From: Tachypleus tridentatus
Lineage: Eukaryota; Arthropoda; Merostomata; Xiphosura; Limulidae
Direction of reading: 5' to 3'
Assembly: GCF_004210375.1 (NCBI RefSeq)
Contig: NC_134831.1
Span: 46,658,035 to 46,722,034, forward strand
DNA: 64,000 nt
The notes under the pieces were generated by a model. The model saw only the letters and a program-made list of their open reading frames with translations. It did no database searches and had not been told where the DNA came from. The first letter of the stretch is position 1. Every line of letters starts with the position of its first letter. Positions 38,153 through 62,744 of the stretch are shown here, one piece after another. A program made the translations under genes and the position numbers.

Positions 38153-38652
38153 NNNNNNNNNNNNNNNNNNNNNNNNNNNNNNNNNNNNNNNNNNNNNNNN
38201 NNNNNNNNNNNNNNNNNNNNNNNNNNNNNNNNNNNNNNNNNNNNNNNNNNNNNNNNNNNNNNNNNNNNNNNNNNNNNNNNNNNNNNNNNNNNNNNNNNNN
38301 NNNNNNNNNNNNNNNNNNNNNNNNNNNNNNNNNNNNNNNNNNNNNNNNNNNNNNNNNNNNNNNNNNNNNNNNNNNNNNNNNNNNNNNNNNNNNNNNNNNN
38401 NNNNNNNNNNNNNNNNNNNNNNNNNNNNNNNNNNNNNNNNNNNNNNNNNNNNNNNNNNNNNNNNNNNNNNNNNNNNNNNNNNNNNNNNNNNNNNNNNNNN
38501 NNNNNNNNNNNNNNNNNNNNNNNNNNNNNNNNNNNNNNNNNNNNNNNNNNNNNNNNNNNNNNNNNNNNNNNNNNNNNNNNNNNNNNNNNNNNNNNNNNNN
38601 NNNNNNNNNNNNNNNNNNNNNNNNNNNNNNNNNNNNNNNNNNNNNNNNNNNN
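38153..38652. other. assembly gap, exactly 500 N
   Basis: 500 consecutive N, a placeholder of arbitrary size. Sequence to the right starts in the middle of an array unit, so the true left boundary of the array lies inside the gap. Confidence 1.
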
Positions 38653-38981
38653 GTTATCGTATGAGTATGGTTTTGAGATGTCTTTTACGTACAGAGTAAT
38701 CCTTCACACATATATATGCAGTACTGTCAAAATATTCAACCTTAATGCCACGTCTTCCGAATTATTCCTTCGGCAAGATGTTTAACATAGCAAGGTAAGC
38801 GCGAAGTGTAAATCAGTGACAAATAGGAAAATCAAATAAGAGATCACCTTACGTTTATTGTTTTAAATATTCGTTCGATAACGTTACAAAACAATTTAAT
38901 TAAGCGTGTCTAAGACACACCACTCTTAAAGACGATTGCGTGAAATACGATACTAATTCAGAATTTCTTTTCCTCAATTAG

Positions 38982-39660
38982 ATCATTTGTCATCAAAGAA
39001 ACCCGAAGTATCAAATAGTTCTTCAACATACATCTCCGACCCGACTAGAGTCACAGACAGTCCGTTCTCAACTACCAGATCAGAAAATACATTTCAACCA
39101 TCCAAGAACAGAACGGAAGTAGTAATTTCTTCAAGAGACGAAGATGTTTTAACACCACAATGCCAGTTGCTGATGATAATAGAACCATAGAACAAGAATC
39201 AACTTCACATAGAAGTAAGTATGACACAATTAAACATTCAAACGTTCGGAACAACTTTGCGTTTTATAGTAATTGGCTACTATTAACAAATCTGAAATTT
39301 CATCGCGGTTTACGTATATCTAAAAACATGATGGAGTTTTTTTTATATAGCAAATCTATTCATGACTCCACAAAAGTAAAATTATATTAGAAAGTCTTTA
39401 CATTTAGAGATGTGAGTATGTTTTATTTATTTTTATTTTACCCTTTTAAGGTATCAGAACGACAACAATCGATCCATCCAAAGTGTGTCCTCCTCAAAAC
39501 GGCAAATTTCCAGTTTTTCTTCCTCATACTGAAAACTGCTCGTTGTACTATGTTTGTGATCATGGAATACCAAAATTAATGCGTTGCCCAGCTCCCCTTC
39601 ACTTCAACCGAGAGCTGAACGTATGTGACTATGAGTGGAGAGCTGGCTGTTCTACGAATG
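38982..39660 (+). CDS. array unit 1: linker exon A (frameshifted) and chitin-binding exon B
   Basis: Exon A is 38982-39214, after TTTTCCTCAATTAG and before GTAAGTATG; exon B is 39451-39660, after CCCTTTTAAG and before GTGAGC. Exon B encodes one complete type-2 chitin-binding (peritrophin-A/CBM14) domain with six cysteines spaced C-16-C-5-C-9-C-12-C-7-C and aromatic residues around LYYVC and YEWRAGC. Such domains bind chitin in peritrophic matrix and cuticle. Both exons enter and leave in phase 1. Exon A here has four T's where units 7-10 have five (near 39147), so its frame ends early in a stop unless exon A is skipped. Exon A has the Thr form of the DPTRV site, as units 7-10 do. Confidence 0.85.
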
Positions 39661-41093
39661 GTGAGCTTTAGGCCTTCTCTTCCTTTCCAGATCTTTTTCT
39701 TGGAAATTGAGGATCCTGAGACAATTTTAACAAAAACAGCAGAAGCTACTTTTCATTTGTTATCGTAAAGAACCCGATAAAAACATTTAAATTAAAAGAA
39801 ACAATCAAAAAACGCGAAACACGTTGATTTCACATAGTTTCTTTGAACCGTTTACAGTAATGCTAACCGCCGCTAGTACAGCGGTAAGTCTACGGACTTA
39901 CAACTCTAAAATCAAGGGCTCCATTTTCCTCTGTGAGCTCAGCCGATAGCCCGATGTGGCTTTGCTATAACAAAACACACACACACACTAATTCTGTTCA
40001 TAGCCTTACCCAACAATGTATAATATATCTACACATTCACCCCAAAATATATTGAATTTCTATTCTTCCAACATACTCTATAAAATATCACACTATCTAC
40101 AAAAACGGAATTTAAAAATACTTTCTTATTCGTCAATGAAACTTTAAGGTTATTTTCTGACATATTTTTGTCGACAATGAATAAGTAAAACATAATGTTA
40201 ATTTACATGAATTTTTTCAATATTAAATCACAAAAGAATGAATAAAAAGTATTCGAACACAAAAATCTCTCACAGAATAAAAAAACAGAAAGGCCTGGAT
40301 ATCAATTATCAATTTATAATTAACATGGAACTAAAATCATATTGAATTGGCAGTTTATTTTAAATAACATAAAGTTAATGACACGTCAACTGCAGGTGCA
40401 CGTGCTAAGAGTCAGTTTCAGCAACAAAGAACGTTGAAGAAAACATGGGAAAACATGTGACTACACCAAACAATTTTCAAGTGTTTTTTAGATCACAATA
40501 AAATCTCGTAGAACCTTTACAATTGTTACAAGAACAAATTAATATGAAAACAATCTAAGAGTTCATTCGATCTTTCCATATGTCACGTTTAAAACTGTCT
40601 TTATTTATCTGTTGACACAAATGTTCTAAGCATCAATGTTACGCAAATACTTATACAATTATTTTAAAAAGTATATATATTATCCTAACGTGCAATACAT
40701 CGAAACGTCTTTTCGAAAACAATATCTCATATTTTTAGAAAATTCAAAGTGTTATATAATATCGGTTATCGTATGAGTATGGTTTTGAGATGTCTTTTAC
40801 GTACAGAGTAATCCTTCACACATATATATGCAGTACTGTCAAAATATTCAACCTTAATGCCACGTCTTCCGAATTATTCCTTCGGCAAGATGTTTAACAT
40901 AGCAAGGTAAGCGCGAAGTGTAAATCAGTGACAAATAGGAAAATCAAATAAGAGATCACCTTACGTTTATTGTTTTAAATATTCGTTCGATAACGTTACA
41001 AAACAATTTAATTAAGCGTGTCTAAGACACACCACTCTTAAAGACGATTGCGTGAAATACGATACTAATTCAGAATTTCTTTTCCTCAATTAG
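39661..41093 (+). other. long intron of the array unit (example from unit 1)
   Basis: Between exon B and the next exon A lies about 1.43 kb with no conserved frame. It contains the family-B SINE and a hairpin-forming TCGAAACGTCTTTTCGA near 40700. It also has a donor-like GCAAGGTAAGCG near 40905 and the perfect dyad GTGTCTAAGACAC near 41020. Other units carry the same layout, plus the Penelope-like insert in units 3, 7 and 8. Confidence 0.7.
39862..39988 (+). mobile_element. SINE family B, one per array unit
   Basis: The copy begins GCTAACCGCCGCTAGTACAG and ends in a (CA)n tail. Equivalent copies lie at 41974-42101, 45447-45573, 47558-47684, 49666-49792, 51769-51895, 55241-55367, 58718-58844, 60831-60957 and 62945-63071. 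The head is tRNA-like with an A-box-like CAGCGGTAAG, but the B box is degraded (GGGCTCCATTTTCC). GTAAGTC and GACTTAC form a 7-bp stem closed by TACG (39884-39901 here). The SINE predates amplification of the array. The Penelope-like insert sits immediately upstream of it. Confidence 0.75.
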
Positions 41094-41773
41094 ATCATTT
41101 GTCATCAAAGAAACCCGAAGTATCAAATAGTTCTTCAACATACATCTCCGACCCGATTAGAGTCACAGACAGTCCGTTCTCAACTACCAGATCAGAAAAT
41201 ACATTTCAACCATCCAAGAACAGAACGGAAGTAGTAATTTCTTCAAGAGACGAAGATGTTTTAACACCACAATGCCAGTTGCTGATGATAATAGAACCAT
41301 AGAACAAGAATCAACTTCACATAGAAGTAAGTATGACACAATTAAACATTCAAACGTTCGGAACAACTTTGCGTTTTATAGTAATTGGCTACTATTAACA
41401 AATCTGAAATTTCATCGCGGTTTACGTATATCTAAAAACATGATGGAGTTTTTTTTATATAGCAAATATATTCATGACTCCACAAAAAGTAAAATTATAT
41501 TGGAAAGTCTTTACATTTAGAGATGTGAGTATGTTTTATTTATTTTTATTTTACCCTTTTAAGGTATCAGAACGACAACAATCGATCCATCCAAAGTGTG
41601 TCCTCCTCAAAACGGCAAATTTCCAGTTTTTCTTCCTCATACTGAAAACTGCTCGTTGTACTATGTTTGTGATCATGGAATACCAAAATTAATGCGTTGC
41701 CCAGCTCCCCTTCACTTCAACCGAGAGCTGAACGTATGTGACTATGAGTGGAGAGCTGGCTGTTCTACGAATG
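41094..41773 (+). CDS. array unit 2: exon A (frameshifted) and chitin-binding exon B
   Basis: Exon A 41094-41326, exon B 41564-41773. Exon B is identical in protein to unit 1. Exon A carries the four-T frameshift and the Thr-to-Ile change (DPIRV) shared by units 2-6, so these five descend from one variant or were homogenised. Confidence 0.85.
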
Positions 41774-43205
41774 GTGAGCTTTAGGCCTTCTCTTCCTTTC
41801 CAGATCTTTTTCTTGGAAATTGAGGATCCTGAGACAATTTTAACAAAAACAGCAGAAGCTACTTTTCATTTGTTATCGTAAAGAACCCGATAAAAACATT
41901 TAAATTAAAAGAAACAATCAAAAAACGCGAAACACGTTGATTTCACATAGTTTCTTTGAACCGTTTACAGTAATGCTAACCGCCGCTAGTACAGCGGTAA
42001 GTCTACGGACTTACAACTCTAAAATCAAGGGCTCCATTTTCCTCTGTGAGCTCAGCCGATAGCCCGATGTGGCTTTGCTATAACAAAACACACACACACA
42101 CTAATTCTGTTCATAGCCTTACCCAACAATGTATAATATATCTACACATTCACCCCAAAATATATTGAATTTCTATTCTTCCAACATACTCTATAAAATA
42201 TCACACTATCTACAAAAACGGAATTTAAAAATACTTTCTTATTCGTCAATGAAACTTTAAGGTTATTTTCTGACATATTTTTGTCGACAATGAATAAGTA
42301 AAACATAATGTTAATTTACATGAATTTTTTCAATATTAAATCACAAAAGAATGAATAAAAAGTATTCGAACACAAAAATCTCTCACAGAATAAAAAAACA
42401 GAAAGGCCTGGATATCAATTATCAATTTATAATTAACATGGAACTAAAATCATATTGAATTGACAGTTTATTTTAAATAACATAAAGTTAATGACACGTC
42501 AACTGCAGGTGCACGTGCTAAGAGTCAGTTTCAGCAACAAAGAACGTTGAAGAAAACATGGGAAAACATGTGACTACACCAAACAATTTTCAAGTGTTTT
42601 TTAGATCACAATAAAATCTCGTAGAACCTTTACAATTGTTACAAGAACAAATTAATATGAAAACAATCTAAGAGTTCATTCGATCTTTCCATATGTCACG
42701 TTTTAAAACTGTCTTTATTTATCTGTTGACACAAATGTTTTAAGCATCAATGTTACGCAAATACTTATACAATTATTTTAAAAGTATATATATTATCCTA
42801 ACGTGCAATACATCGAAACGTCTTTTCGAAAACAATATCTCATATTTTAGAAAATTCAAAGTGTTATATAATATCGGTTATCGTATGAGTATGGTTTTGA
42901 GATGTCTTTACGTACAGAGTAATCCTTCACACATATATATGCAGTACTGTCAAAAATATTCAACCTTAATGCCACGTCTTCCGAATTATTCCTTCGGCAA
43001 GATGTTTAACATAGCAAGGTAAGCGCGAAGTGTAAATCAGTGACAAATAGGAAAATCAAATAAGAGATCACCTTACGTTTATTGTTTTAAATATTCGTTC
43101 GATAACGTTACAAAACAATTTAATTAAGCGTGTCTAAGACACACCACTCTTAAAGACGATTGCGTGAAATACGATACTAATTCAGAATTTCTTTTCCTCA
43201 ATTAG

Positions 43206-43886
43206 ATCATTTGTCATCAAAGAAACCCGAAGTATCAAATAGTTCTTCAACATACATCTCCGACCCGATTAGAGTCACAGACAGTCCGTTCTCAACTACC
43301 AGATCAGAAAATACATTTCAACCATCCAAGAACAGAACTGAAGTAGTAATTTCTTCAAGAGACGAAGATGTTTTAACACCACAATGCCAGTTGCTGATGA
43401 TAATAGAACCATAGAACAAGAATCAACTTCACATAGAAGTAAGTATGACACAATTAAACATTCAAACGTTCGGAACAACTTTGCGTTTTATAGTAATTGG
43501 CTACTATTAACAAATCTGAAATTTCATCGCGGTTTACGTATATCTAAAAAACATGATGGAGTTTTTTTTATATAGCAAATGTATTCATGACTCCACAAAA
43601 AGTAAAATTATATTGGAAAGTCTTTACATTTAGAGATGTGAGTATGTTTTATTTATTTTTATTTTACCCTTTTAAGGTATCAGAACGACAACAATCGATC
43701 CATCCAAAGTGTGTCCTCCTCAAAACGGCAAATTTCCAGTTTTTCTTCCTCATACTGAAAACTGCTCGTTGTACTATGTTTGTGATCATGGAATACCAAA
43801 ATTAATGCTTTGCCCAGCTCCCCTTCACTTCAACCGAGAGCTGAACGTATGTGACTATGAGTGGAGAGCTGGCTGTTCTACGAATG
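43206..43886 (+). CDS. array unit 3: exon A (frameshifted) and chitin-binding exon B with Arg-to-Leu
   Basis: Exon A 43206-43438 (four T's, DPIRV), exon B 43677-43886. Exon B is the only copy with Leu in place of Arg just before the fourth cysteine (LMLCPAP instead of LMRCPAP); all six cysteines remain. The following long intron carries the first Penelope-like insert. Confidence 0.85.
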
Positions 43887-44088
43887 GTGAGCTTTAGGCC
43901 TTCTCTTCCTTTCCAGATCTTTTTCTTGGAAATTGAGGATCCTGAGACAATTTTAACAAAAACAGCAGAAGCTACTTTTCATTTGTTATCGTAAAGAACC
44001 CGATAAAAAACATTTAAATTAAAAGAAACAATCAAAAAACGCGAAACACGTTGATTTCACATAGTTTCTTTGAACCGTTTACAGTAAT

Positions 44089-45434
44089 AATCAGTGAGAC
44101 CCTAACCCGACTATAGAAATTCCCAGTAACCAGTTAGCAACCCTCATAGAATTCACCACGATAAAGACAAACTTCATGTTCAACAACCAAAACTATATAC
44201 AAACAAATGGCCTAAGCATGGGCAACCCAGTATCACCAGTTCTAGCCAATATTTTATGACACAAGTTGAAACACATGCAATTAACACAGCATTACATCCA
44301 CCATTATATTGGTACAGATATGTAGATGACACGGTTGTGGGATTCAAATTTACAGAACACATACTTAATTTTTTTCAATCACATTAACTCTATACATCCC
44401 AACATCAACTTCACATGTGAACAGGAAGAAAACAAACAAATATCATTTCTTAACCTCAAAATTACAAGAACTGATACACAATTTCAAACAGAAATCCACC
44501 GAAAAATCACCCATACTGGACTATACATTCCTTGGGACTCAGCACATGAAACAAAACAAAAACTCAACATACTAAGAAACCAAATAAACACAGCCATAAA
44601 ACTATGCTCACCAGATAAAATTAACCATGAATTAGACAAAATAAAACAATACTTCACCAACATCAATAAGTTTCCTCCACAAACCGTAGAAAACATTATA
44701 CGCACACACCTAGACAGAAAGCAAAATCAACCAACTAAAGTAAATACAGCTCACGAATCAAAAAACCACGAAACCACATACTGCTGTATACCATATATTC
44801 CTGACATCAGCAAACAAATAACCAACATTTGGCAAAAATTAGTAACAAAATATGACATTCCAATTAATACTAAATTTATTCAAAAACCCGGCACAAAACT
44901 GAGGTCTATACTATGTAAAAACTACACTGACAAACACCACACCAACATTATTTATAAAATACAATGTGATAACTGCCACGACTTCTATATTGGAGAAACA
45001 AGTAGAAAAATGGAAACCAGATTCAAAGAACATAAAAAGTCACCTTCACACGTTTTCGAACACTGCAAGTCAAATAAACACAACATAACCATAGAAAACA
45101 CTCAAATACTAAATAAAGAAACAAACATAAACAAACGCAAAATTAAAGAAGCCTTACTTATACAACAACTTAAACCCATAATAAACCAATATAAAGGAAC
45201 GCCTTTATACCTATATTAATAAAATAAATAAAATTATATATTCAAACATCTAATACCGCCCTCTATATTTCGACACACAGTTACACAACCCCTTTCAAAC
45301 ATGTGGTCAGCATCCGGTCAGTTACCTCTTTCTTTGTGAACCTGACGATGAACGAAGAAGGTCGAAACGTTGTTCGCTCTTCTATGTAAAAGTGTTTTCT
45401 CAGCCAAAACGAGCCGTTTTTGCATATAAATTTC
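44089..45434 (+). mobile_element. Penelope-like element, 5'-truncated, copy in unit 3
   Basis: 1346-bp insert flanked by a 12-bp direct repeat, GTTTACAGTAAT at 44077-44088 and GTTTACAGTGAT at 45435-45446. It holds the 3' part of a Penelope-like ORF: reverse-transcriptase motif B (GLSMGNPVSPVLANI, 44210-44254), catalytic YVDD (44319-44330), thumb region, then a GIY-YIG endonuclease (IIYKIQCDNC...FYIGETSRKMETRFKEH, about 44945-45035) to a TAA near 45217. Two T-run differences from copy 2 (near 44252 and 44371) shift the frame in the reverse-transcriptase part. The downstream 297-codon frame (44326-45219) is open through the endonuclease. The 5' part of the reverse transcriptase is absent, so it cannot be autonomous. 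Confidence 0.93.
45336..45377 (+). ncRNA. hammerhead-ribozyme-like motif in the Penelope-like 3' tail
   Basis: The sequence reads GUGAAC, CUGACGA, U, GAAC, GAAGAA, GGUC, GAAAC, GUU, GUUCGC. GUGAAC can pair with GUUCGC (stem I, one G-U pair), CUGACGA and GAAA are the hammerhead core, and the segment between them is stem II, here weakened by C-to-A relative to the other copies. Stem III is absent in cis, but AACGUU is self-complementary, so two molecules could form it. Hammerhead motifs are known in Penelope-like elements. One extra U after CUGACGA departs from the consensus. Confidence 0.4.
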
Positions 45435-46675
45435 GTTTACAGTGATGCTAACCGCCGCTCGTACAGCGGTAAGTCTACGGACTTACAACTCTAAAATCAA
45501 GGGCTCAATTTTCCTCGGTGAGCTCAGCCGATAGCCCGATGTGGCTTTGCTATAACAAAACACACACACACACTAATTCTGTTCATAGCCTTACCCAACA
45601 ATGTATAATATATCTACACATTCACCCCAAAATATATTGAATTTCTATTCTTCCAACATACTCTATAAAATATCACACTATCCACAAAAAACGGAATTTA
45701 AAAATACTTTCTTATTCGTCAATGAAACTTTAAGGTTATTTTCTGACATATTTTTGTCGACAATGAATAAGTAAAACATAATGTTAATTTACATGAATTT
45801 TTTCAATATTAAATCACAAAAGAATGAATAAAAATATTCGAACACAAAAATCTCTCACAGAATAAAAAACAGAAAGGCCTGGATATCAATTATCAATTTA
45901 TAATTAACATGGAACTAAAATCGAAATGAATTGACAGTTTATTTTAAATAACATAAAATTAATGACACGTCAACTGCAGGTGTACGTGCTAAGAGTCAGT
46001 TTCAGCAACAAAGAACGTTGAAGAAAACATGGGAAAACATGTGACTACACCAAACAATTTTCAAGTGTTTTTTAGATCACAGGAAAATCTCGTAGAACTT
46101 TACAATTGTTACAAGAACAAATTAATTTGAAAACAATCTAAGAGTTCATTCGATCTTTCCATATGTCACGTTTTAAAACTGTCTTTATTTATCTGTTGAC
46201 ACAAATGTTCTAAGCATCAATGTTACGCAAATACTTATACAATTATTTTAAAAGTATATATATTATCCTAACGTGCAATACATCGAAACGTCTTTTCGAA
46301 AACAATATCTCATATTTTAGAAAATTCAAAGTGTTATATAATATCGGTTATCGTATGAGTATGGTTTTGAGATGTCTTTACGTACAGAGTAATCCTTCAC
46401 ACATATATATGCAGTACTGTCAAAAATATTCAACCTTAATGCCACGTCTTCCGAATTATTCCTTCGGCAAGATGTTTAACATAGCAAGGTAAGCGCGAAG
46501 TGTAAATCAGTGACAAATAGGAAAATCAAATAAGAGATCACCTTACGTTTATTGTTTTAAATATTCGTTCGATAACGTTACAAAACAATTTAATTAAGCG
46601 TGTCTAAGACACACCACTCTTAAAGACGATTGCGTGAAATACGATACTAATTCAGAATTTCTTTTCCTCAATTAG

Positions 46676-47355
46676 ATCATTTGTCATCAAAGAAACCCGA
46701 AGTATCAAATAGTTCTTCAACATACATCTCCGACCCGATTAGAGTCACAGACAGTCCGTTCTCAACTACCAGATCAGAAAATACATTTCAACCATCCAAG
46801 AACAGAACTGAAGTAGTAATTTCTTCAAGAGACGAAGATGTTTTAACACCACAATGCCAGTTGCTGATGATAATAGAACCATAGAACAAGAATCAACTTC
46901 ACATAGAAGTAAGTATGACACAATTAAACATTCAAACGTTCGGAACAACTTTGCGTTTTATAGTAATTGGCTACTATTAACAAATCTGAAATTTCATCGC
47001 GGTTTACGTATATCTAAAAACATGATGGAGTTTTTTTTATATAGCAAATGTATTCATGACTCCACAAAAAGTAAAATTATATTGGAAAGTCTTTACATTT
47101 AGAGATGTGAGTATGTTTTATTTATTTTTATTTTACCCTTTTAAGGTATCAGAACGACAACAATCGATCCATCCAAAGTGTGTCCTCCTCAAAACGGCAA
47201 ATTTCCAGTTTTTCTTCCTCATACTGAAAACTGCTCGTTGTACTATGTTTGTGATCATGGAATACCAAAATTAATGCGTTGCCCAGCTCCCCTTCACTTC
47301 AACCGAGAGCTGAACGTATGTGACTATGAGTGGAGAGCTGGCTGTTCTACGAATG
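46676..47355 (+). CDS. array unit 4: exon A (frameshifted) and chitin-binding exon B
   Basis: Exon A 46676-46908 (four T's, DPIRV), exon B 47146-47355 with the common protein sequence. No transposon insert in the following intron. Confidence 0.85.
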
Positions 47356-48784
47356 GTGAGCTTTAGGCCTTCTCTTCCTTTCCAGATCTTTTTCTTGGAA
47401 ATTGAGGATCCTGAGACAATTTTAACAAAAACAGCAGAAGCTACTTTTCATTTGTTATCGTAAAGAACCCGATAAAAACATTTAAATTAAAAGAAACAAT
47501 CAAAAAAACGCGAAACACGTTGATTTCACATAGTTTCTTTGAACCGTTTACAGTAATGCTAACCGCCGCTAGTACAGCGGTAAGTCTACGGACTTACAAC
47601 TCTAAAATCAAGGGCTCCATTTTCCTCTGTGAGCTCAGCCGATAGCCCGATGTGGCTTTGCTATAACAAAACACACACACACACTAATTCTGTTCATAGC
47701 CTTACCCAACAATGTATAATATATCTACACATTCACCCCAAAATATATTGAATTTCTATTCTTCCAACATACTCTATAAAATATCACACTATCTACAAAA
47801 ACGGAATTTAAAAATACTTTCTTATTCGTCAATGAAACTTTAAGGTTATTTTCTGACATATTTTTGTCGACAATGAATAAGTAAAACATAATGTTAATTT
47901 ACATGAATTTTTCAATATTAAATCACAAAAGAATGAATAAAAATATTCGAACACAAAAATCTCTCACAGAATAAAAAACAGAAAGGCCTGGATATCAATT
48001 ATCAATTTATAATTAACATGGAACTAAAATCATATTGAATTGACAGTTTATTTTAAATAACATAAAGTTAATGACACGTCAACTGCAGGTGCACGTGCTA
48101 AGAGTCAGTTTCAGCAACAAAGAACGTTGAAGAAAACATGGGAAAACATGTGACTACACCAAACAATTTTCAAGTGTTTTTAGATCACAATAAAATCTCG
48201 TAGAACCTTTACAATTGTTACAAGAACAAATTAATATGAAAACAATCTAAGAGTTCATTCGATCTTTCCATATGTCACGTTTTAAAACTGTCTTTATTTA
48301 TCTGTTGACACAAATGTTCTAAGCATCAATGTTACGCAAATACTTATACAATTATTTTAAAAGTATATATATTATCCTAACGTGCAATACATCGAAACGT
48401 CTTTTCGAAAACAATATCTCATATTTTAGAAAATTCAAAGTGTTATATAATATCGGTTATCGTATGAGTATGGTTTTGAGATGTCTTTTACGTACAGAGT
48501 AATCCTTCACACATATATATGCAGTACTGTCAAAATATTCAACCTTAATGCCACGTCTTCCGAATTATTCCTTCGGCAAGATGTTTAACATAGCAAAATA
48601 AGCGCGAAGTGTAAATCAGTGACAAATAGGAAAATCAAATAAGAGATCACCTTACGTTTATTGTTTTAAATATTCGTTCGATAACGTTACAAAACAATTT
48701 AATTAAGCGTGTCTAAGACACACCACTCTTAAAGACGATTGCGTGAAATACGATACTAATTCAGAATTTCTTTTCCTCAATTAG

Positions 48785-49464
48785 ATCATTTGTCATCAAA
48801 GAAACCCGAAGTATCAAATAGTTCTTCAACATACATCTCCGACCCGATTAGAGTCACAGACAGTCCGTTCTCAACTACCAGATCAGAAAATACATTTCAA
48901 CCATCCAAGAACAGAACGGAAGTAGTAATTTCTTCAAGAGACGAAGATGTTTTAACACCACAATGCCAGTTGCTGATGATAATAGAACCATAGAACAAGA
49001 ATCAACTTCACATAGAAGTAAGTATGACACAATTAAACATTCAAACGTTCGGAACAACTTTGCGTTTTATAGTAATTGGCTACTATTAACAAATCTGAAA
49101 TTTCATCGCGGTTTACGTATATCTAAAAACATGATGGAGTTTTTTTTATATAGCAAATGTATTCATGACTCCACAAAAAGTAAAATTATATTGGAAAGTC
49201 TTTACATTTAGAGATGTGAGTATGTTTTATTTATTTTTATTTTACCCTTTTAAGGTATCAGAACGACAACAATCGATCCATCCAAAGTGTGTCCTCCTCA
49301 AAACGGCAAATTTCCAGTTTTTCTTCCTCATACTGAAAACTGCTCGTTGTACTATGTTTGTGATCATGGAATACCAAAATTAATGCGTTGCCCAGCTCCC
49401 CTTCACTTCAACCGAGAGCTGAACGTATGTGACTATGAGTGGAGAGCTGGCTGTTCTACGAATG
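48785..49464 (+). CDS. array unit 5: exon A (frameshifted) and chitin-binding exon B
   Basis: Exon A 48785-49017 (four T's, DPIRV), exon B 49255-49464 with the common protein sequence. This unit reads GCAAAATAAGCG near 48594 where all others have GCAAGGTAAGCG, which removes a donor-like site upstream and argues that the site is not used. Confidence 0.85.
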
Positions 49465-50890
49465 GTGAGCTTTAGGCCTTCTCTTCCTTTCCAGATCTTT
49501 TTCTTGGAAATTGAGGATCCTGAGACAATTTTAACAAAAACAGCAGAAGCTACTTTTCATTTGTTATCGTAAAGAACCCGATAAAAACATTTAAATTAAA
49601 AGAAACAATCAAAAAACGCGAAACACGTTGATTTCACATAGTTTCTTTGAACCGTTTACAGTAATGCTAACCGCCGCTAGTACAGCGGTAAGTCTACGGA
49701 CTTACAACTCTAAAATCAAGGGCTCCATTTTCCTCTGTGAGCTCAGCCGATAGCCCGATGTGGCTTTGCTATAACAAAACACACACACACACTAATTCTG
49801 TTCATAGCCTTACCCAACAATGTATAATATATCTACACATTCACCCCAAAATATATTGAATTTCTATTCTTCCAACATACTCTATAAAATATCACACTAT
49901 CTACAAAACGGAATTTAAAATACTTTCTTATTCGTCAATGAAACTTTAAGGTTATTTTCTGACATATTTTTGTCGACAATGAATAAGTAAAACATAATGT
50001 TAATTTACATGAATTTTTCAATATTAAATCACAAAAGAATGAATAAAAATATTCGAACACAAAAATCTCTCACAGAATAAAAAACAGAAAGGCCTGGATA
50101 TCAATTATCAATTTATAATTAACATGGAACTAAAATCATATTGAATTGACAGTTTATTTTAAATAACATAAAGTTAATGACACGTCAACTGCAGGTGCAC
50201 GTGCTAAGAGTCAGTTTCAGCAACAAAGAACGTTGAAGAAAACATGGGAAAACATGTGACTACACCAAACAATTTTCAAGTGTTTTTAGATCACAATAAA
50301 ATCTCGTAGAACCTTTACAATTGTTACAAGAACAAATTAATATGAAAACAATCTAAGAGTTCATTCGATCTTTCCATATGTCACGTTTTAAAACTGTCTT
50401 TATTTATCTGTTGACACAAATGTTCTAAGCATCAATGTTACGCAAATACTTATACAATTATTTTAAAAGTATATATATTATCCTAACGTGCAATACATCG
50501 AAACGTCTTTTCGAAAACAATATCTCATATTTTAGAAAATTCAAAGTGTTATATAATATCGGTTATCGTATGAGTATGGTTTTGAGATGTCTTTTACGTA
50601 CAGAGTAATCCTTCACACATATATATGCAGTACTGTCAAAATATTCAACCTTAATGCCACGTCTTCCGAATTATTCCTTCGGCAAGATGTTTAACATAGC
50701 AAGGTAAGCGCGAAGTGTAAATCAGTGACAAATAGGAAAATCAAATAAGAGATCACCTTACGTTTATTGTTTTAAATATTCGTTCGATAACGTTACAAAA
50801 CAATTTAATTAAGCGTGTCTAAGACACACCACTCTTAAAGACGATTGCGTGAAATACGATACTAATTCAGAATTTCTTTTCCTCAATTAG

Positions 50891-51570
50891 ATCATTTGTC
50901 ATCAAAGAAACCCGAAGTATCAAATAGTTCTTCAACATACATCTCCGACCCGATTAGAGTCACAGACAGTCCGTTCTCAACTACCAGATCAGAAAATACA
51001 TTTCAACCATCCAAGAACAGAACTGAAGTAGTAATTTCTTCAAGAGACGAAGATGTTTTAACACCACAATGCCAGTTGCTGATGATAATAGAACCATAGA
51101 ACAAGAATCAACTTCACATAGAAGTAAGTATGACACAATTAAACATTCAAACGTTCGGAACAACTTTGCGTTTTATAGTAATTGGCTACTATTAACAAAT
51201 CTGAAATTTCATCGCGGTTTACGTATATCTAAAAACATGATGGAGTTTTTTTTATATAGCAAATCTATTCATGACTCCACAAAAAGTAAAATTATATTGG
51301 AAAGTCTTTACATTTAGAGATGTGAGTATGTTTTATTTATTTTTATTTTACCCTTTTAAGGTATCAGAACGACAACAATCGATCCATCCAAAGTGTGTCC
51401 TCCTCAAAACGGCAAATTTCCAGTTTTTCTTCCTCATACTGAAAACTGCTCGTTGTACTATGTTTGTGATCATGGAATACCAAAATTAATGCGTTGCCCA
51501 GCTCCCCTTCACTTCAACCGAGAGCTGAACGTATGTGACTATGAGTGGAGAGCTGGCTGTTCTACGAATG
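50891..51570 (+). CDS. array unit 6: exon A (frameshifted) and chitin-binding exon B
   Basis: Exon A 50891-51123 (four T's, DPIRV), exon B 51361-51570 with the common protein sequence. It is the last unit carrying the frameshift; everything to its right is open. Confidence 0.85.
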
Positions 51571-52999
51571 GTGAGCTTTAGGCCTTCTCTTCCTTTCCAG
51601 ATCTTTTCTTGGAAATTGAGGATCCTGAGACAATTTTAACAAAACAGCAGAAGCTACTTTTCATTTGTTATCGTAAAGAACCCGATAAAACATTTAAATT
51701 AAAAGAAACAATCAAAAAACGCGAAACACGTTGATTTCACATAGTTTCTTTGAACCGTTTACAGTAATGCTAACCGCCGCTAGTACAGCGGTAAGTCTAC
51801 GGACTTACAACTCTAAAATCAAGGGCTCCATTTTCCTCTGTGAGCTCAGCCGATAGCCCGATGTGGCTTTGCTATAACAAAACACACACACACACTAATT
51901 CTGTTCATAGCCTTACCCAACAATGTATAATATATCTACACATTCACCCCAAAATATATTGAATTTCTATTCTTCCAACATACTCTATAAAATATCACAC
52001 TATCTACAAAACGGAATTTAAAAATACTTTCTTATTCGTCAATGAAACTTTAAGGTTATTTTCTGACATATTTTTGTCGACAATGAATAAGTAAAACATA
52101 ATGTTAATTTACATGAATTTTTTCAATATTAAATCACAAAAGAATGAATAAAAAATATTCGAACACAAAAATCTCTCACAGAATAAAAAACAGAAAGGCC
52201 TGGATATCAATTATCAATTTATAATTAACATGGAACTAAAATCATATTGAATTGGCAGTTTATTTTAAATAACATAAAGTTAATGACACGTCAACTGCAG
52301 GTGCACGTGCTAAGAGTCAGTTTCAGCAACAAAGAACGTTGAAGAAAACATAGGAAAACATGTGACTACACCAAACAATTTTCAAGTGTTTTTTCAGATC
52401 ACAGGAAAATCTCGTAGAACTTTACAATTGTTACAAGAACAAATTAATATGAAAACAATCTAAGAGTTCATTCGATCTTTCCATATGTCACGTTTTAAAA
52501 CTGTCTTTATTTATCTGTTGACACAAATGTTCTAAGCATCAATGTTACGCAAATACTTATACAATTATTTTAAAAAGTATATATATTATCCTAACGTGCA
52601 ATACATCGAAACGTCTTTTCGAAAACAATATCTCATATTTTTAGAAAATTCAAAGTGTTATATAATATCGGTTATCGTATGAGTATGGTTTTGAGATGTC
52701 TTTACGTACAGAGTAATCCTTCACACATATATATGCAGTACTGTCAAAAATATTCAACCTTAATGCCACGTCTTCCGAATTATTCCTTCGGCAAGATGTT
52801 TAACATAGCAAGGTAAGCGCGAAGTGTAAATCAGTGACAAATAAAAAAATCAAATAAGAGATCACCTTACGTTTATTGTTTTAAATATTCGTTCGATAAC
52901 GTTACAAAACAATTTAATTAAGCGTGTCTAAGACACACCACTCTTAAAGACGATTGCGTGAAATACGATACTAATTCAGAATTTCTTTTCCTCAATTAG

Positions 53000-53682
53000 A
53001 TCATTTGTCATCAAAGAAACCCGAAGTATCAAATAGTTCTTCAACATACATCTCCGACCCGACTAGAGTCACAGACAGTCCGTTCTCAACTACCAGATCA
53101 GAAAATACATTTCAACCATCCAAGAACAGAACTGAAGTAGTAATTTCTTCAAGAGACGAAGATGTTTTTAACACCACAATGCCAGTTGCTGATGATAATA
53201 GAACCATAGAACAAGAATCAACTTCACATAGAAGTAAGTATGACACAATTAAACATTCAAACGTTCGGAACAACTTTGCGTTTTATAGTAATTGGCTACT
53301 ATTAACAAATCTGAAATTTCATCGCGGTTTACGTATATCTAAAAAACATGATGGAGTTTTTTTTTATATAGCAAATCTATTCATGACTCCACAAAAAGTA
53401 AAATTATATTGGAAAGTCTTTACATTTAGAGATGTGAGTATGTTTTATTTATTTTTATTTTACCCTTTTAAGGTATCAGAACGACAACAATCGATCCATC
53501 CAAAGTGTGTCCTCCTCAAAACGGCAAATTTCCAGTTTTTCTTCCTCATACTGAAAACTGCTCGTTGTACTATGTTTGTGATCATGGAATACCAAAATTA
53601 ATGCGTTGCCCAGCTCCCCTTCACTTCAACCGAGAGCTGAACGTATGTGACTATGAGTGGAGAGCTGGCTGTTCTACGAATG
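53000..53682 (+). CDS. array unit 7: open exon A and chitin-binding exon B
   Basis: Exon A 53000-53233 (234 nt, 77 codons plus split codons) is fully open. It is Ser/Thr-rich with sequons at NSS, NRT, NTT and NRT, ending TSHRS across the junction. Exon B is 53473-53682. Splicing A to B rebuilds AGT (Ser), and exon B to the next A rebuilds GAT (Asp), so a B-A-B chain stays in frame. The 198-codon open frame through the 239-bp intron is incidental, since the intron has good donor and acceptor sites. Confidence 0.88.
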
Positions 53683-53884
53683 GTGAGCTTTAGGCCTTCT
53701 CTTCCTTTCCAGATCTTTTTCTTGGAAATTGAGGATCCTGAGACAATTTTAACAAAAACAGCAGAAGCTACTTTTCATTTGTTATCGTAAAGAACCCGAT
53801 AAAAAACATTTAAATTAAAAGAAACAATCAAAAAACGCGAAACACGTTGATTTCACATAGTTTCTTTGAACCGTTTACAGTAAT

Positions 53885-55228
53885 AATCAGTGAGACCCTA
53901 ACCCGACTATAGAAATTCCCAGTAACCAGTTAGCAACCCTCATAGAATTCACCACGATAAAGACAAACTTCATGTTCAACAACCTAAACTATATACAAAC
54001 AAATGGCCTAAGCATGGGCAACCCAGTATCACCAGTTCTAGCCAATATTTTTATGACACAAGTTGAAACACATGCAATTAACACAGCATTACATCCACCA
54101 TTATATTGGTACAGATATGTAGATGACACGGTTGCGGGATTCAAATTTACAGAACACATACTTAATTTTTTCAATCACATTAACTCTATACATCCCAACA
54201 TCAACTTCACATGTGAACAGGAAGAAAACAAACAAATATCATTTCTTAACCTCAAAATTACAAGAACTGATACACAATTTCAAACAGAAATCCACCGAAA
54301 AATCACCCATACTGGACTATACATTCCTTGGGACTCAGCACATGAAACAAAACAAAAACTCAACATACTAAGAAACCAAATAAACACAGCCATAAAACTA
54401 TGCTCACCAGATAAAATTAACCATGAATTAGACAAAATAAAACAATACTTCACCAACATCAATAAGTTTCCTCCACAAACCGTAGAAAACATTATACGCA
54501 CACACCTAGACAGAAAGCAAAATCAACCAACTAAAGTAAATACAGCTCACGAATCAAAACCACGAAACCACATACTGCTGTATACCATATATTCCTGACA
54601 TCAGCAAACAAATAACCAACATTTGGCAAAAATTAGTAACAAAATATGACATTCCAATTAATACTAAATTTATTCAAAAACCCTGCACAAAACTGAGGTC
54701 TATACTATGTAAAAACTACACTGACAAACACCACACCAACATTATTTATAAAATACAATGTGATAACTGCCACGACTTCTATATTGGAGAAACAAGTAGA
54801 AAAATGGAAACCAGATTCAAAGAACATAAAAAGTCACCTTCACACGTTTTCGAACACTGCAAGTCAAATAAACACAACATAACCATAGAAAACACTCAAA
54901 TACTAAATAAAGAAACAAACATAAACAAACGCAAAATTAAAGAAGCCTTACTTATACAACAACTTAAACCCATAATAAACCAATATAAAGGAACGCCTTT
55001 ATACCTATATTAATAAAATAAATAAAATTATATATTCAAACATCTAATACCGCCCTCTATATTTCGACACACAGTTACACAACCCCTTTCAAACATGTGG
55101 TCAGCATCCGGTCAGTTACCTCTTTCTTTGTGAACCTGACGATGACCGAAGAAGGTCGAAACGTTGTTCGCTTTTCTATGTAAAAGTGTTTTCTCAGCCA
55201 AAACGAGCCGATTTTGCATATAAATTTC
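53885..55228 (+). mobile_element. Penelope-like element, 5'-truncated, copy in unit 7
   Basis: Same insertion point as the unit-3 copy, with direct repeats at 53873-53884 and 55229-55240. The reverse-transcriptase part is open from 53972 to 54598, including motif B and YVDD (54116-54127). An A-run two bases shorter than in the unit-3 copy (near 54557) then shifts the frame before the endonuclease. The C-terminal endonuclease frame reappears at 54804-55013 ending GTPLYLY. A single GGC-to-TGC change near 54683 also distinguishes it. Confidence 0.93.
55130..55171 (+). ncRNA. hammerhead-ribozyme-like motif, copy 2
   Basis: Same arrangement as at 45336-45377, but stem II is fully paired here (GACC with GGUC closing a GAAGAA loop). 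This is the better candidate for a folding test. Confidence 0.42.
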
Positions 55229-56476
55229 GTTTACAGTGATGCTAACCGCCGCTCGTACAGCGGTAAGTCTACGGACTTACAACTCTAAAATCAAGGGCTC
55301 AATTTTCCTCGGTGAGCTCAGCCGATAGCCCGATGTGGCTTTGCTATAACAAAACACACACACACACTAATTCTGTTCATAGCCTTACCCAACAATGTAT
55401 AATATATCTACACATTCACCCCAAAATATATTGAATTTCTATTCTTCCAACATACTCTATAAAATATCACACTATCCACAAAAAACGGAATTTAAAAATA
55501 CTTTCTTATTCGTCAATGAAACTTTAAGGTTATTTTCTGACATATTTTTGTCGACAATGAATAAGTAAAACATAATGTTAATTTACATGAATTTTTTCAA
55601 TATTAAATCACAAAAGAATGAATAAAAATATTCGAACACAAAAATCTCTCACAGAATAAAAAACAGAAAGGCCTGGATATCAATTATCAATTTATAATTA
55701 ACATGGAACTAAAATCGAAATGAATTGACAGTTTATTTTAAATAACATAAAATTAATGACACATCAACTGCAGGTGTACGTGCTAAGAGTCAGTTTCAGC
55801 AACAAAGAACGTTGAAGAAAACATAGGAAAACATGTGACTACACCAAACAATTTTCAAGTGTTTTTTTTAGATCACAGGAAAATCTCGTAGAACTTCTAC
55901 AATTCTTACAAGAAGAAATTAATTTGAAAACAATCTAAGAGTTCATTCGATCTTTCCATATGTCACGTTTTAAAACTGTCTTTATTTATCTGTTGACACA
56001 AATGTTCTAAGCATCAATGTTACGCAAATACTTATACAATTATTTTAAAAAGTATATATATTATCCTAACGTGCAATACATCGAAACGTCTTTTCGAAAA
56101 CAATATCTGATATTTTTAGAAAATTCAAAGTGTTATATAATATCGGTTATCATATGAGTATGGTTTTGAGATGTCTTTTACGTACAGAGTAATCCTTCAC
56201 ACATATATATGCAGTACTGTCAAAAATATTCAACCTTAATGCCACGTCTTCCGAATTATTCCTTCGGCAAGATGTTTAACATAGCAAGGTAAGCGCGAAG
56301 TGTAAATCAGTGACAAATAAAAAAATCAAATAAGAGATCACCTTACGTTTATTGTTTTAAATATTCGTTCGATAACGTTACAAAACAATTTAATTAAGCG
56401 TGTCTAAGACACACCACTCTTAAAGACGATTGCGTGAAATACGATACTAATTCAGAATTTCTTTTTTCTCAATTAG

Positions 56477-57158
56477 ATCATTTGTCATCAAAGAAACCCG
56501 AAGTATCAAATAGTTCTTCAACATACATCTCCGACCCGACTAGAGTCACAGACAGTCCGTTCTCAACTACCAGATCAGAAAATACATTTCAACCATCCAA
56601 GAACAGAACGGAAGTAGTAATTTCTTCAAGAGACGAAAATGTTTTTAACACCACAATGCCAGTTGCTGATGATAATAGAACCATAGAACAAGAATCAACT
56701 TCACATAGAAGTAAGTATGACACAATTAAACATTCAAACGTTCGGAACAACTTTGCGTTTTATAGTAATTGGCTACTATTAACAAATCTGAAATTTCATC
56801 GCGGTTTACGTATATCTAAAAACATGATGGAGTTTTTTTTTATATAGCAAATCTATTCATGACTCCACAAAAAGTAAAATTATATTGGAAAGTCTTTACA
56901 TTTAGAGATGTGAGTATGTTTTATTTATTTTTATTTTACCCTTTTAAGGTATCAGAACGACAACAATCTATCCATCCAAAGTGTGTCCTCCTCAAAACGG
57001 CAAATTTCCAGTTTTTCTTCCTCATACTGAAAACTGCTCGTTGTACTATGTTTGTGATCATGGAATACCAAAATTAATGCGTTGCCCAGCTCCCCTTCAC
57101 TTCAACCGAGAGCTGAACGTATGTGACTATGAGTGGAGAGCTGGCTGTTCTACGAATG
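56477..57158 (+). CDS. array unit 8: open exon A and chitin-binding exon B with Asp-to-Tyr
   Basis: Exon A 56477-56710 is open, with Asp-to-Asn (RDENV) shared with units 9 and 10. Exon B 56949-57158 has TIYPSK instead of TIDPSK ahead of the first cysteine, shared only with unit 9. The acceptor tract of exon A is CTTTTTTCTCAATTAG, slightly richer in T than in units 1-7. Confidence 0.88.
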
Positions 57159-57360
57159 GTGAGCTTTAGGCCTTCTCTTCCTTTCCAGATCTTTTTCTTG
57201 GAGATTGAGGATCCTGAGACAATTTTAACAAAAACAGCAGAAGCTACTTTTCATTTGTTATCGTAAAGAACCCGATAAAAACATTTAAATTAAAAGAAAC
57301 AATCAAAAAAACGCGAAACACGTTGATTTCACATAGTTTCTTTGAACCGTTTACAGTAAT

Positions 57361-58705
57361 AATCAGTGAGACCCTAACCCGACTATAGAAATTCCCAGTA
57401 ACCAGTTAGCAACCCTCATAGAATTCACCACGATAAAGACAAACTTCATGTTCAACAACCAAAACTATATACAAACAAATGGCCTAAGCATGGGCAACCC
57501 AGTATCACCAGTTCTAGCCAATATTTTTTATGACACAAGTTGAAACACATGCAATTAACACAGCATTACATCCACCATTATATTGGTACAGATATGTAGA
57601 TGACACGGTTGCGGGATTCAAATTTACAGAACACATACTTAATTTTTTCAATCACATTAACTCTATACATCCCAACATCAACTTCACATGTGAACAGGAA
57701 GAAAACAAACAAATATCATTTCTTAACCTCAAAATTACAAGAACTGATACACAATTTCAAACAGAAATCCACCGAAAAATCACCCATACTGGACTATACA
57801 TTCCTTGGGACTCAGCACATGAAACAAAACAAAAACTCAACATACTAAGAAACCAAATAAACACAGCCATAAAACTATGCTCACCAGATAAAATTAACCA
57901 TGAATTAGACAAAATAAAACAATACTTCACCAACATCAATAAGTTTCCTCCACAAACCGTAGAAAACATTATACGCACACACCTAGACAGAAAGCAAAAT
58001 CAACCAACTAAAGTAAATACAGCTCACGAATCAAAAAAACCACGAAACCACATACTGCTGTATACCATATATTCCTGACATCAGCAAACAAATAACCAAC
58101 ATTTGGCAAAAAATTAGTAACAAAATATGACATTCCAATTAATACTAAATTTATTCAAAACCCGGCACAAAACTGAGGTCTATACTATGTAAAACTACAC
58201 TGACAAACACCACACCAACATTATTTATAAAATACAATGTGATAACTGCCACGACTTCTATATTGAGAAACAAGTAGAAAAATGGAAACCAGATTCAAAG
58301 AACATAAAAGTCACCTTCACACGTTTTCGAACACTGCAAGTCAAATAAACACAACATAACCATAGAAAACACTCAAATACTAAATAAAGAAACAAACATA
58401 AACAAACGCAAAATTAAAGAAGCCTTACTTATACAACAACTTAAACCCATAATAAACCAATATAAAGGAACGCCTTTATACCTATATTAATAAAATAAAT
58501 AAAATTATATATTCAAACATCTAATACCGCCCTCTATATTTCGACACACAGTTACACAACCCCTTTCAAACATGTGGTGAGCATCCGGTCAGTTACCTCT
58601 TTCTTTGTGAACCTGACGATGACCGAAGAAGGTCGAAACGTTGTTCGCTCTTCTATGTAAAAGTGTTTTCTCAGCCAAAACGAGCCGTTTTTGCATATAA
58701 ATTTC
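57361..58705 (+). mobile_element. Penelope-like element, 5'-truncated, copy in unit 8
   Basis: Same insertion point; direct repeats at 57349-57360 and 58706-58717. A T-run one base longer than in unit 7 (near 57527) shifts the frame just after motif B. The rest of the reverse transcriptase is open from 57530 to 58078. Further single-base losses near 58190, 58265 and 58308 break the endonuclease part. This is the most damaged of the three copies. Confidence 0.93.
58607..58648 (+). ncRNA. hammerhead-ribozyme-like motif, copy 3
   Basis: Identical in core and stems to the unit-7 motif (55130-55171). Confidence 0.42.
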
Positions 58706-59948
58706 GTTTACAGTGATGCTAACCGCCGCTCATACAGCGGTAAGTCTACGGACTTACAACTCTAAAATCAAGGGCTCAATTTTCCTCGGTGAGCTCAGCC
58801 GATAGCCCGATGTGGCTTTGCTATAACAAAACACACACACACACTAATTCTGTTCATAGCCTTACCCAACAATGTATAATATATCTACACATTCACCCCA
58901 AAATATATTGAATTTCTATTCTTCCAACATACTCTATAAAATATCACACTATCCACAAAACGGAATTTAAAAATACTTTCTTATTCGTCAATGAAACTTT
59001 AAGGTTATTTTCTGACATATTTTTGTCGACAATGAATAAGTAAAACATAATGTTAATTTACATGAATTTTTTCAATATTAAATCACAAAAGAATGAATAA
59101 AAATATTCGAACACAAAAATCTCTCACAGAATAAAAAACAGAAAGGCCTGGATATCAATTATCAATTTATAATTAATATGGAACTAAAATCGAAATGAAT
59201 TGACAGTTTATTTTAAATAACATAAAATTAATGACACGTCAACTGCAGGTGTACGTGCTAAGAGTCAGTTTCAGCAACAAAGAACGTTGAAGAAAACATG
59301 GGAAAACATGTGACTACACCAAACAATTTTCAAGTGTTTTTTAGATCACAATAAAATCTCGTAGAACCTTTTCAATTGTTACAAGAACAAATTAATATGA
59401 AAACAATCTAAGAGTTCATTCGATCTTTCCATATGTCACGTTTTAAAACTGTCTTTATTTATCTGTTGACACAAATGTTCTAAGCATCAATGTTACGCAA
59501 ATACTTATACAATTATTTTAAAAAGTATATATATTATCCTAACGTGCAATACATCGAAACGTCTTTTCGAAAACAATATCTCATATTTTTAGAAAATTCA
59601 AAGTGTTATATAATATCGGTTATCGTATGAGTATGGTTTTGAGATGTCTTTTACGTACAGAGTAATCCTTCACACATATATATGCAGTACTGTCAAAAAT
59701 ATTCAACCTTAATGCCACGTCTTCCGAATTATTCCTTCGGCAAGATGTTTAACATAGCAAGGTAAGCGCGAAGTGTAAATCAGTGACAAATAAAAAAATC
59801 AAATAAGAGATCACCTTACGTTTATTGTTTTAAATATTCGTTCGATAACGTTACAAAACAATTTAATTAAGCGTGTCTAAGACACACCACTCTTAAAGAC
59901 GATTGCGTGAAATACGATACTAATTCAGAATTTCTTTTTCTCAATTAG

Positions 59949-60629
59949 ATCATTTGTCATCAAAGAAACCCGAAGTATCAAATAGTTCTTCAACATACAT
60001 CTCCGACCCGACTAGAGTCACAGACAGTCCGTTCTCAACTACCAGATCAGAAAATACATTTCAACCATCCAAGAACAGAACGGAAGTAGTAATTTCTTCA
60101 AGAGACGAAAATGTTTTTAACACCACAATGCCAGTTGCTGATGATAATAGAACCATAGAACAAGAATCAACTTCACATAGAAGTAAGTATGACACAATTA
60201 AACATTCAAACGTTCGGAACAACTTTGCGTTTTATAGTAATTGGCTACTATTAACAAATCTGAAATTTCATCGCGGTTTACGTATATCTAAAAACATGAT
60301 GGAGTTTTTTTTATATAGCAAATGTATTCATGACTCCACAAAAAGTAAAATTATATTGGAAAGTCTTTACATTTAGAGATGTGAGTATGTTTTATTTATT
60401 TTTATTTTACCCTTTTAAGGTATCAGAACGACAACAATCTATCCATCCAAAGTGTGTCCTCCTCAAAACGGCAAATTTCCAGTTTTTCTTCCTCATACTG
60501 AAAACTGCTCGTTGTACTATGTTTGTGATCATGGAATACCAAAATTAATGCGTTGCCCAGCTCCCCTTCACTTCAACCGAGAGCTGAACGTATGTGACTA
60601 TGAGTGGAGAGCTGGCTGTTCTACGAATG
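59949..60629 (+). CDS. array unit 9: open exon A and chitin-binding exon B with Asp-to-Tyr
   Basis: Exon A 59949-60182 open (RDENV), exon B 60420-60629 (TIYPSK). Exons match unit 8, but the following intron lacks the Penelope-like insert and still carries intron variants typical of insert-bearing units, making it a mosaic. Confidence 0.88.
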
Positions 60630-62063
60630 GTGAGCTTTAGGCCTTCTCTTCCTTTCCAGATCTTTTTCTTGGAGATTGAGGATCCTGAGACAATTTTAAC
60701 AAAAACAGCAGAAGCTACTTTTCACTTGTTATCGTAAAGAACCCGATAAAAACATTTAAATTAAAAGAAACAATCAAAAAACGCGAAACACGTTGATTTC
60801 ACATAGTTTCTTTGAACCGTTTACAGTAATGCTAACCGCCGCTAGTACAGCGGTAAGTCTACGGACTTACAACTCTAAAATCAAGGGCTCCATTTTCCTC
60901 GGTGAGCTCAGCCGATAGCCCGATGTGGCTTTGCTATAACAAAACACACACACACACTAATTCTGTTCATAGCCTTACCCAACAATGTATAATATATCTA
61001 CACATTCACCCCAAAATATATTGAATTTCTATTCTTCCAACATACTCTATAAAATATCACACTATCTACAAAAACGGAATTTAAAAATACTTTCTTATTC
61101 GTCAATGAAACTTTAAGGTTATTTTCTGACATATTTTTGTCGACAATGAATAAGTAAAACATAATGTTAATTTACATGAATTTTTTCAATATTAAATCAC
61201 AAAAGAATGAATAAAAATATTCGAACACAAAAATCTCTCACAGAATAAAAAACAGAAAGGCCTGGATATCAATTATCAATTTATAATTAATATGGAACTA
61301 AAATCGAAATGAATTGACAGTTTATTTTAAATAACATAAAATTAATGACACGTCAACTGCAGGTGTACGTGCTAAGAGTCAGTTTCAGCAACAAAGAACG
61401 TTGAAGAAAACATGGGAAAACATGTGACTACACCAAACAATTTTCAAGTGTTTTTTAGATCACAATAAAATCTCGTAGAACCTTTTCAATTGTTACAAGA
61501 ACAAATTAATATGAAAACAATCTAAGAGTTCATTCGATCTTTCCATATGTCACGTTTTAAAACTGTCTTTATTTATCTGTTGACACAAATGTTCTAAGCA
61601 TCAATGTTACGCAAATACTTATACAATTATTTTAAAAAGTATATATATTATCCTAACGTGCAATACATCGAAACGTCTTTTCGAAAACAATATCTCATAT
61701 TTTTAGAAAATTCAAAGTGTTATATAATATCGGTTATCGTATGAGTATGGTTTTGAGATGTCTTTTACGTACAGAGTAATCCTTCACACATATATATGCA
61801 GTACTGTCAAAAATATTCAACCTTAATGCCACGTCTTCCGAATTATTCCTTCGGCAAGATGTTTAACATAGCAAGGTAAGCGCGAAGTGTAAATCAGTGA
61901 CAAATAAAAAAATCAAATAAGAGATCACCTTACGTTTATTGTTTTAAATATTCGTTCGATAACGTTACAAAACAATTTAATTAAGCGTGTCTAAGACACA
62001 CCACTCTTAAAGACGATTGCGTGAAATACGATACTAATTCAGAATTTCTTTTTTCTCAATTAG

Positions 62064-62744
62064 ATCATTTGTCATCAAAGAAACCCGAAGTATCAAATAG
62101 TTCTTCAACATACATCTCCGACCCGACTAGAGTCACAGACAGTCCGTTCTCAACTACCAGATCAGAAAATACATTTCAACCATCCAAGAACAGAACGGAA
62201 GTAGTAATTTCTTCAAGAGACGAAAATGTTTTTAACACCACAATGCCAGTTGCTGATGATAATAGAACCATAGAACAAGAATCAACTTCACATAGAAGTA
62301 AGTATGACACAATTAAACATTCAAACGTTCGGAACAACTTTGCGTTTTATAGTAATTGGCTACTATTAACAAATCTGAAATTTCATCGCGGTTTACGTAT
62401 ATCTAAAAACATGATGGAGTTTTTTTTATATAGCAAATGTATTCATGACTCCACAAAAAGTAAAATTATATTGGAAAGTCTTTACATTTAGAGATGTGAG
62501 TATGTTTTATTTATTTTTATTTTACCCTTTTAAGGTATCAGAACGACAACAATCGATCCATCCAAAGTGTGTCCTCCTCAAAACGGCAAATTTCCAGTTT
62601 TTCTTCCTCATACTGAAAACTGCTCGTTGTACTATGTTTGTGATCATGGAATACCAAAATTAATGCGTTGCCCAGCTCCCCTTCACTTCAACCGAGAGCT
62701 GAACGTATGTGACTATGAGTGGAGAGCTGGCTGTTCTACGAATG
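62064..62744 (+). CDS. array unit 10: open exon A and chitin-binding exon B
   Basis: Exon A 62064-62297 open (RDENV), exon B 62535-62744 with the common TIDPSK form. It is followed by a PLE-free intron and the first 155 bases of an eleventh unit at the window edge. Confidence 0.88.

Follow-up and report, generated by a model that had tools for sequence, protein, structure and literature searches.

In the human LPA gene, the kringle IV-2 (KIV-2) unit is a 5.5-kb segment with two exons (160 and 182 bp) and two introns that is present in 1 to >40 copies within one gene; a donor-site variant in this array was found in association with a null allele, and only some of the copies carry the other variants (PMC4378929). 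Among chitin-binding proteins, those of Bombyx are reported to possess up to 16 CBM14 domains (PMC7663561), while ASG1 of spiders contains three chitin-binding type 2 domains encoded over six exons, one domain lying in the long last exon. A figure legend marks a mucin-like domain in ASG1, and its authors propose a homologue of insect intestinal mucin; in the mucin domains of Mamestra, Thr reaches 68.7% (PMC4753498). In this study we describe a tandem array of linker and CBM14 exons from Tachypleus tridentatus, located in a 64,000-nucleotide (nt) stretch of contig NC_134831.1 (RefSeq assembly GCF_004210375.1, positions 46,658,035 to 46,722,034, forward strand). This whole stretch is the window, and coordinates are counted from its first letter. 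We propose, with a probability of about 58%, that the array arose when an internal pair of exons, in a multi-CBM14 (peritrophin-type) gene for a secreted protein, was recently amplified in tandem within the gene.

Comparison of a 2.5-kb stretch with the window by BLAST revealed ten head-to-tail units (U1 to U10) of approximately 2.1 kb, all in a single orientation, from position 38982 on; in the same search the array copies spanned 38653 to the window end. Each unit comprises an exon A, specifying a Ser/Thr-rich linker, and an exon B, specifying a six-cysteine CBM14 domain. The strings that start and end the two exons were found by exact-string search ten times each, at all four boundaries, with zero mismatches. 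On the left the array is bordered by an assembly gap of 500 N (38153..38652), directly after which, at 38653, lies the 329-base tail of a further unit (U0, 38653..38981, plus strand) that is cut by the gap; on the right, the B-A intron of U10 (62745..64000, plus strand) runs past the end of the window. Since the array adjoins the gap and runs off the window, the initial annotation was correct in counting "at least ten" copies; its limits, from the start of the first exon A (38982) to the end of the last exon B (62744), are likewise confirmed. It did not include the gap, the extension of the array to the window end, or a 1.34-kb retroelement insertion in U3, U7 and U8. Sensitive BLAST of the U9 unit against positions 1-38152 gave zero matches at E 1e-3.

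Without the retroelement, U1 to U9 are 2106-2121 bases long, U10 being truncated by the window end. Pairwise substitutions over whole units, introns included, range from 0.21% (U9-U10) to 1.42% (U5-U7); for U3, U7 and U8 the comparison omits the retroelement together with a single copy of its target duplication, and the U5 values are inflated by four misaligned columns. These percentages bear out the near-identical introns of the initial annotation, and in having ten near-identical, head-to-tail units inclusive of both exons and introns the array resembles LPA KIV-2.

Exon B is 210 nt long, enters and leaves in phase 1, and is open with intact splice boundaries in 10/10 units, all on the plus strand: U1 (39451..39660), U2 (41564..41773), U3 (43677..43886), U4 (47146..47355), U5 (49255..49464), U6 (51361..51570), U7 (53473..53682), U8 (56949..57158), U9 (60420..60629) and U10 (62535..62744). 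U3 shows one Arg-to-Leu difference, and U8 and U9 share an Asp-to-Tyr difference before the first cysteine. The U6 copy, which was used for the Pfam and PDB scans, possesses a CBM_14 domain (PF01607; 52.6 bits against a curated cut-off of 22.1, E 5e-14) matching profile positions 8-53 of 53. The cysteine spacing is 16-5-9-12-7, with five residues between C2 and C3, and the six-cysteine pattern is present in all ten copies. Its PDB sequence matches (phmmer) number nine up to E 1 and include chitinases (best 4.2e-06), a polyphenol-binding protein and tachycitin (1dqc, 1.8e-05). The AlphaFold model, built from the single sequence, is of low confidence (predicted local distance difference test, pLDDT, 54.5). 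Beyond the ten copies, no six-cysteine CBM14-like pattern was located in six frames of the window, a screen which an intron-split domain would escape, and tblastn with exon B returned short matches alone elsewhere in the window (E 0.48 or worse).

Exon A exists in two forms. In U7 (53000..53233), U8 (56477..56710), U9 (59949..60182) and U10 (62064..62297) it is 234 nt long and open, and contains a run of five T. In U1 (38982..39214), U2 (41094..41326), U3 (43206..43438), U4 (46676..46908), U5 (48785..49017) and U6 (50891..51123), again all on the plus strand, the run has four T, the exon is 233 nt long and the broken frame contains an in-frame TAG. The coding length of A plus B is accordingly 444 nt in four units and 443 nt in the other six, so that the unit as a whole is not frame-neutral across the array; a copy number that leaves the frame unchanged holds, in all ten units, for the 210 nt of exon B alone. 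Any chain of A and B exons that begins in one of the units U7-U10 is open, the U7-U10 chain amounting to 591 residues. A chain of the ten B exons alone is open as well (699 residues), as is one that omits exon A in U1-U6 only (1011 residues over the window).

Several statements of the initial annotation can be judged from these data. Its complete, phase 1-1 CBM14 exon is confirmed by the PF01607 match and the ten open copies, and so are its junctions (exon B ending AAT G, exon A starting AT CAT, exon A ending AGA A, exon B starting GT ATC). The claim that an A-B-A-B chain always remains in frame, with 148 residues per unit, fails, given that six of the ten A exons are 233 nt long with a TAG. 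The phase-1-symmetric cassette of linker and CBM14 domain holds for the four intact copies and breaks down in the six frame-broken units, and a protein of at least ten 148-residue units is not supported as written, the six 5' linker exons being out of frame.

The linker encoded by exon A is 34% Ser+Thr and has four N-glycosylation sequons. When exon A of U9 was subjected to 20000 dinucleotide shuffles, 384 products were open; 2 were open with as much Ser+Thr, and 4 were open with as many sequons. The 234-nt exon A looks coding, and openness with such a composition is unlikely by chance. The term "mucin", as used initially for the product, rests on these same properties of the linker, which are modest; a giant mucin is possible and unproven.

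The 1.34-kb insertion lies at one identical site in the B-A intron of three of the ten units, U3 (44089..45433), U7 (53885..55227) and U8 (57361..58704), on the plus strand and with linked substitutions. Its 13-base target duplication is identical in the three units, the right copy carrying the same single change in each. An insertion common to three units indicates that the units spread after it took place, and since U3 matches the left-hand units in exon A but U7 around the insertion, U3 is a mosaic. Both the shared insertion and the mosaic U3 are accounted for by unequal exchange and conversion that followed the insertion. The recent amplification of the whole intron-exon unit suggested by the initial annotation is supported. 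The element, which we take to be Penelope-like, is so named from its motifs: in Pfam, a reverse transcriptase match was obtained in the U7 copy (RVT_1, 4.3e-08, on 53894-54595), GIY-YIG had no match in that copy up to E 1, and the open frame tested of the U3 copy (44326-45216) had no match at E 0.01.

The B-A intron also contains, in all ten units (about 60831-60955 in U9), a stretch resembling a short interspersed nuclear element, with a tRNA-promoter-like head and a CA-repeat tail as judged by eye. A 26-base part of it has 10 exact matches in the array and none elsewhere in the window at up to 3 mismatches. ARAGORN (bacterial code) and Rfam (gathering thresholds) made no calls in the window, this stretch included.

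On the reading favoured here, a 2.1-kb segment with one linker exon and one CBM14 exon would have been amplified by recent unequal exchange, and gene conversion would have mixed the copies. Because exon B and the 234-nt exon A are both phase 1-1, the reading frame survives the gain or loss of such units, as it does in LPA KIV-2. The units are predicted to be spliced into one transcript, the product would be secreted and chitin-binding, and the linkers may serve as glycosylated spacers. Of the 11 stretches between or beside the units (the first of 329 bases, the last cut by the window), 0/11 offered a start exon combining a hydrophobic segment with a phase-1 donor, a result more in keeping with internal exons than with separate genes; the ends of the gene, and any signal-peptide exon, would lie beyond the window or within the gap. 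To the left of the gap (30000-38152), where array sequence is absent, there are eight weak start-exon candidates, seven of them inside a region resembling a long interspersed nuclear element (LINE). Splice-site scoring of the region around U9 with splice matrices ranked exon B as the best and exon A as the second-best non-overlapping open segment running from phase 1 to phase 1.

Some of the evidence weighs against an amplified, translated exon pair. Translation of an A-B chain that begins in one of the units U1-U6 ends at residue 69, and the six frame-broken copies of exon A (6/10) all lie 5' of the four intact ones; as U1-U6 are transcribed first on the plus strand, simple A-B joining would give a product terminated upstream of the intact units. 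The loss shared by the six 5' units would, as assembled, end the reading of the transcript early and leave the intact 3' units untranslated, an outcome that would be avoided if the loss is a consensus error or if the broken A exons are skipped. No purifying selection is visible among the five exon substitutions, four of which change an amino acid while one is silent, a ratio close to that of the possible changes (951 amino-acid-changing to 294 silent, with a further 69 to stops). Nor are substitutions significantly less dense in the exons than in the long intron (Fisher p 0.17, calculated with 32 long-intron sites, four of the 36 having been left out as products of local U5 misalignment). For homopolymer runs of at least four bases, the variable fraction was 1/7 in exons versus 17/51 outside (p 0.42). 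The donors of exons A and B rank 6th and 3rd, respectively, of the 107 GT sites around U9, which is good and not outstanding, and the exon B acceptor ranks 6th of 108 AG sites. Neither constraint nor positive selection is shown, and drift with unequal exchange suffices; where the initial annotation had suggested recent "selection or drift", the selection half is unsupported and the drift half remains.

A 101-nt open segment flanked by strong splice-like sites (61775-61875, and at the same place in other units) was considered as a third cassette exon. It outscores exons A and B but has phase 0-2, its donor is lost in U4 and its internal run length varies at alignment column 1872; it is probably a decoy.

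Among the alternatives, the one that survives best, and which is compatible with the other readings, is that assembly effects have shaped what is seen: the break in U1-U6 would be a consensus error, and the number or order of units would be wrong, possibly through the joining of two haplotypes (U1-U6 and U7-U10). We regard this as possible, though tentative. The array adjoins the 500-N gap, and the T missing from exon A sits in a homopolymer. Outside the exons, runs differing in length between units account for 9/9 of those of at least six bases, 6/9 of those of five and 2/33 of those of four, with runs classed by their longest copy, a classing which favours variable runs. The three retroelement copies have 11 gapped alignment columns, mostly in runs, versus 7 with substitutions. 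Some run-length states join units that are not otherwise close (U6/U10 at column 755, U4/U8 at column 831), whereas several others follow relatedness or adjacency, unlike random error (U1/U2 at column 1306; U4/U5 at 1238 and 1511; U3/U7 at 342, 802 and 1126). Also against an error, the short T run is present in 6/6 units on the left and 0/4 on the right. Within 150 columns, the compatible fraction of pairs was 0.73 of 55 for indel with substitution, 0.78 of 18 for indels and 0.76 of 51 for substitutions. The confinement of the short run to six neighbouring units, the run lengths that track relatedness and the compatibility of the indels favour an inherited change; the variability of all nine long runs and the position of the array beside a gap, as in a difficult long-read assembly, count against one. 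In our tentative judgement, a real one-base loss in exon A is somewhat ahead of a consensus error.

Should the loss be real, the array might instead be a decaying or passenger macrosatellite-like array which captured two exons of a CBM14 gene, is no longer or never was translated as a chain, and spread the loss by unequal exchange. This would suit the short T run, which six adjoining units have and the other four lack, and the shared indels, which agree with nearby substitutions to about the degree that substitutions agree among themselves, as inherited variants would; nor is amino-acid constraint seen in the exons. On the other hand, all ten units keep an open exon B and intact splice strings, and 4/10 keep an open exon A, yet few lesions would be expected at approximately 1% divergence, and overall we find a decaying or passenger array rather doubtful.

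A copy-number-variable giant chitin-binding protein from which the frame-broken linker exons are skipped appears quite unlikely. Exon B joins exon B in frame, so the broken linker exons could be left out, and the protein would then have a 70-residue CBM14 period over U1-U6 followed by a 148-residue period over U7-U10; unequal exchange would then alter the spacing of the domains as well as their number. A row of ten small independent genes, each having one CBM14 domain and exon B as its last exon, is highly improbable, for although read-through of the exon B donor gives Gly-Glu-Leu-stop in 10/10 units and six AATAAA/ATTAAA motifs lie downstream in U9 (the sole unit examined), none of the 11 stretches supplies the start exon and the exon B donor is third of the 107 GT sites.

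Outside the array, the LINE-like retroelement remains lie at 30350-34535 on the minus strand (RVT_1, 1.6e-07; an endonuclease piece, at 26.8 versus 27.4 bits, falls just under the cut-off), and a frame in this region is presumably gag-like, with zinc-knuckle-type cysteines recognised by eye. A long open frame for a transposase, which we assume to be of the Tc1/mariner type, is found at 12256-12957 on the minus strand (DDE_3, 5.8e-12), and a weaker transposase piece at 28372-28830 on the plus strand (DDE_3, 0.0016, below the cut-off). Two similar hydrophobic open frames on the minus strand (9920-10177 and 19499-19795) resemble, on visual inspection, exons of a membrane transporter gene that has been duplicated; neither has a Pfam match.

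Tachycitin has an antimicrobial role. Exon B matches its residues 23-63 (PDB 1dqc; phmmer E 1.8e-05), but tachycitin is a small, single-domain protein with 74 residues in the chain. With the CBM14 proteins of PMC7663561 the array shares repeated six-cysteine chitin-binding domains, and there the domains of one protein cluster together; the first cysteine gap is 11-15 in that set and 16 here. Since Bombyx proteins reach 16 domains, ten would be no record. In PMC7663561, no word begins with "exon", "tandem", "linker" or "duplication", and an exon array is therefore not described in that text. Spider ASG1, compared by description, is likewise an animal protein with chitin-binding type 2 domains, for which the consulted portion of PMC4753498 does not describe an amplified cassette. 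Against the 68.7% Thr of the Mamestra mucin domains (PMC4753498), the linker of the present array has 34% Ser+Thr and is open in 4/10 units. A limited search of the open literature, by titles and abstract openings, gave no chitin-binding exon array among the matches listed; a young amplification of a whole cassette in a chitin-binding gene would be less usual than the number of its domains.

The closest known working model for the array is, in our assessment, LPA KIV-2 (PMC4378929), with which it shares a cassette, repeated in tandem in the genome, that holds two exons and two introns. They differ in that the LPA protein is proven, while the 2.1-kb unit described here, one of whose exons encodes a linker and the other a whole domain, is known from genomic sequence alone, and in that six of the ten linker copies are broken as assembled. 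If it is not transcribed, the array would plainly show how young tandem arrays can carry exons with them and break them, and would caution against reading such arrays as giant proteins without a check of each copy. If it is transcribed, it would be an invertebrate-type counterpart of LPA KIV-2 in which the number of chitin-binding domains could change between individuals by unequal exchange, and would offer a natural test of whether copy number tunes chitin-binding avidity.

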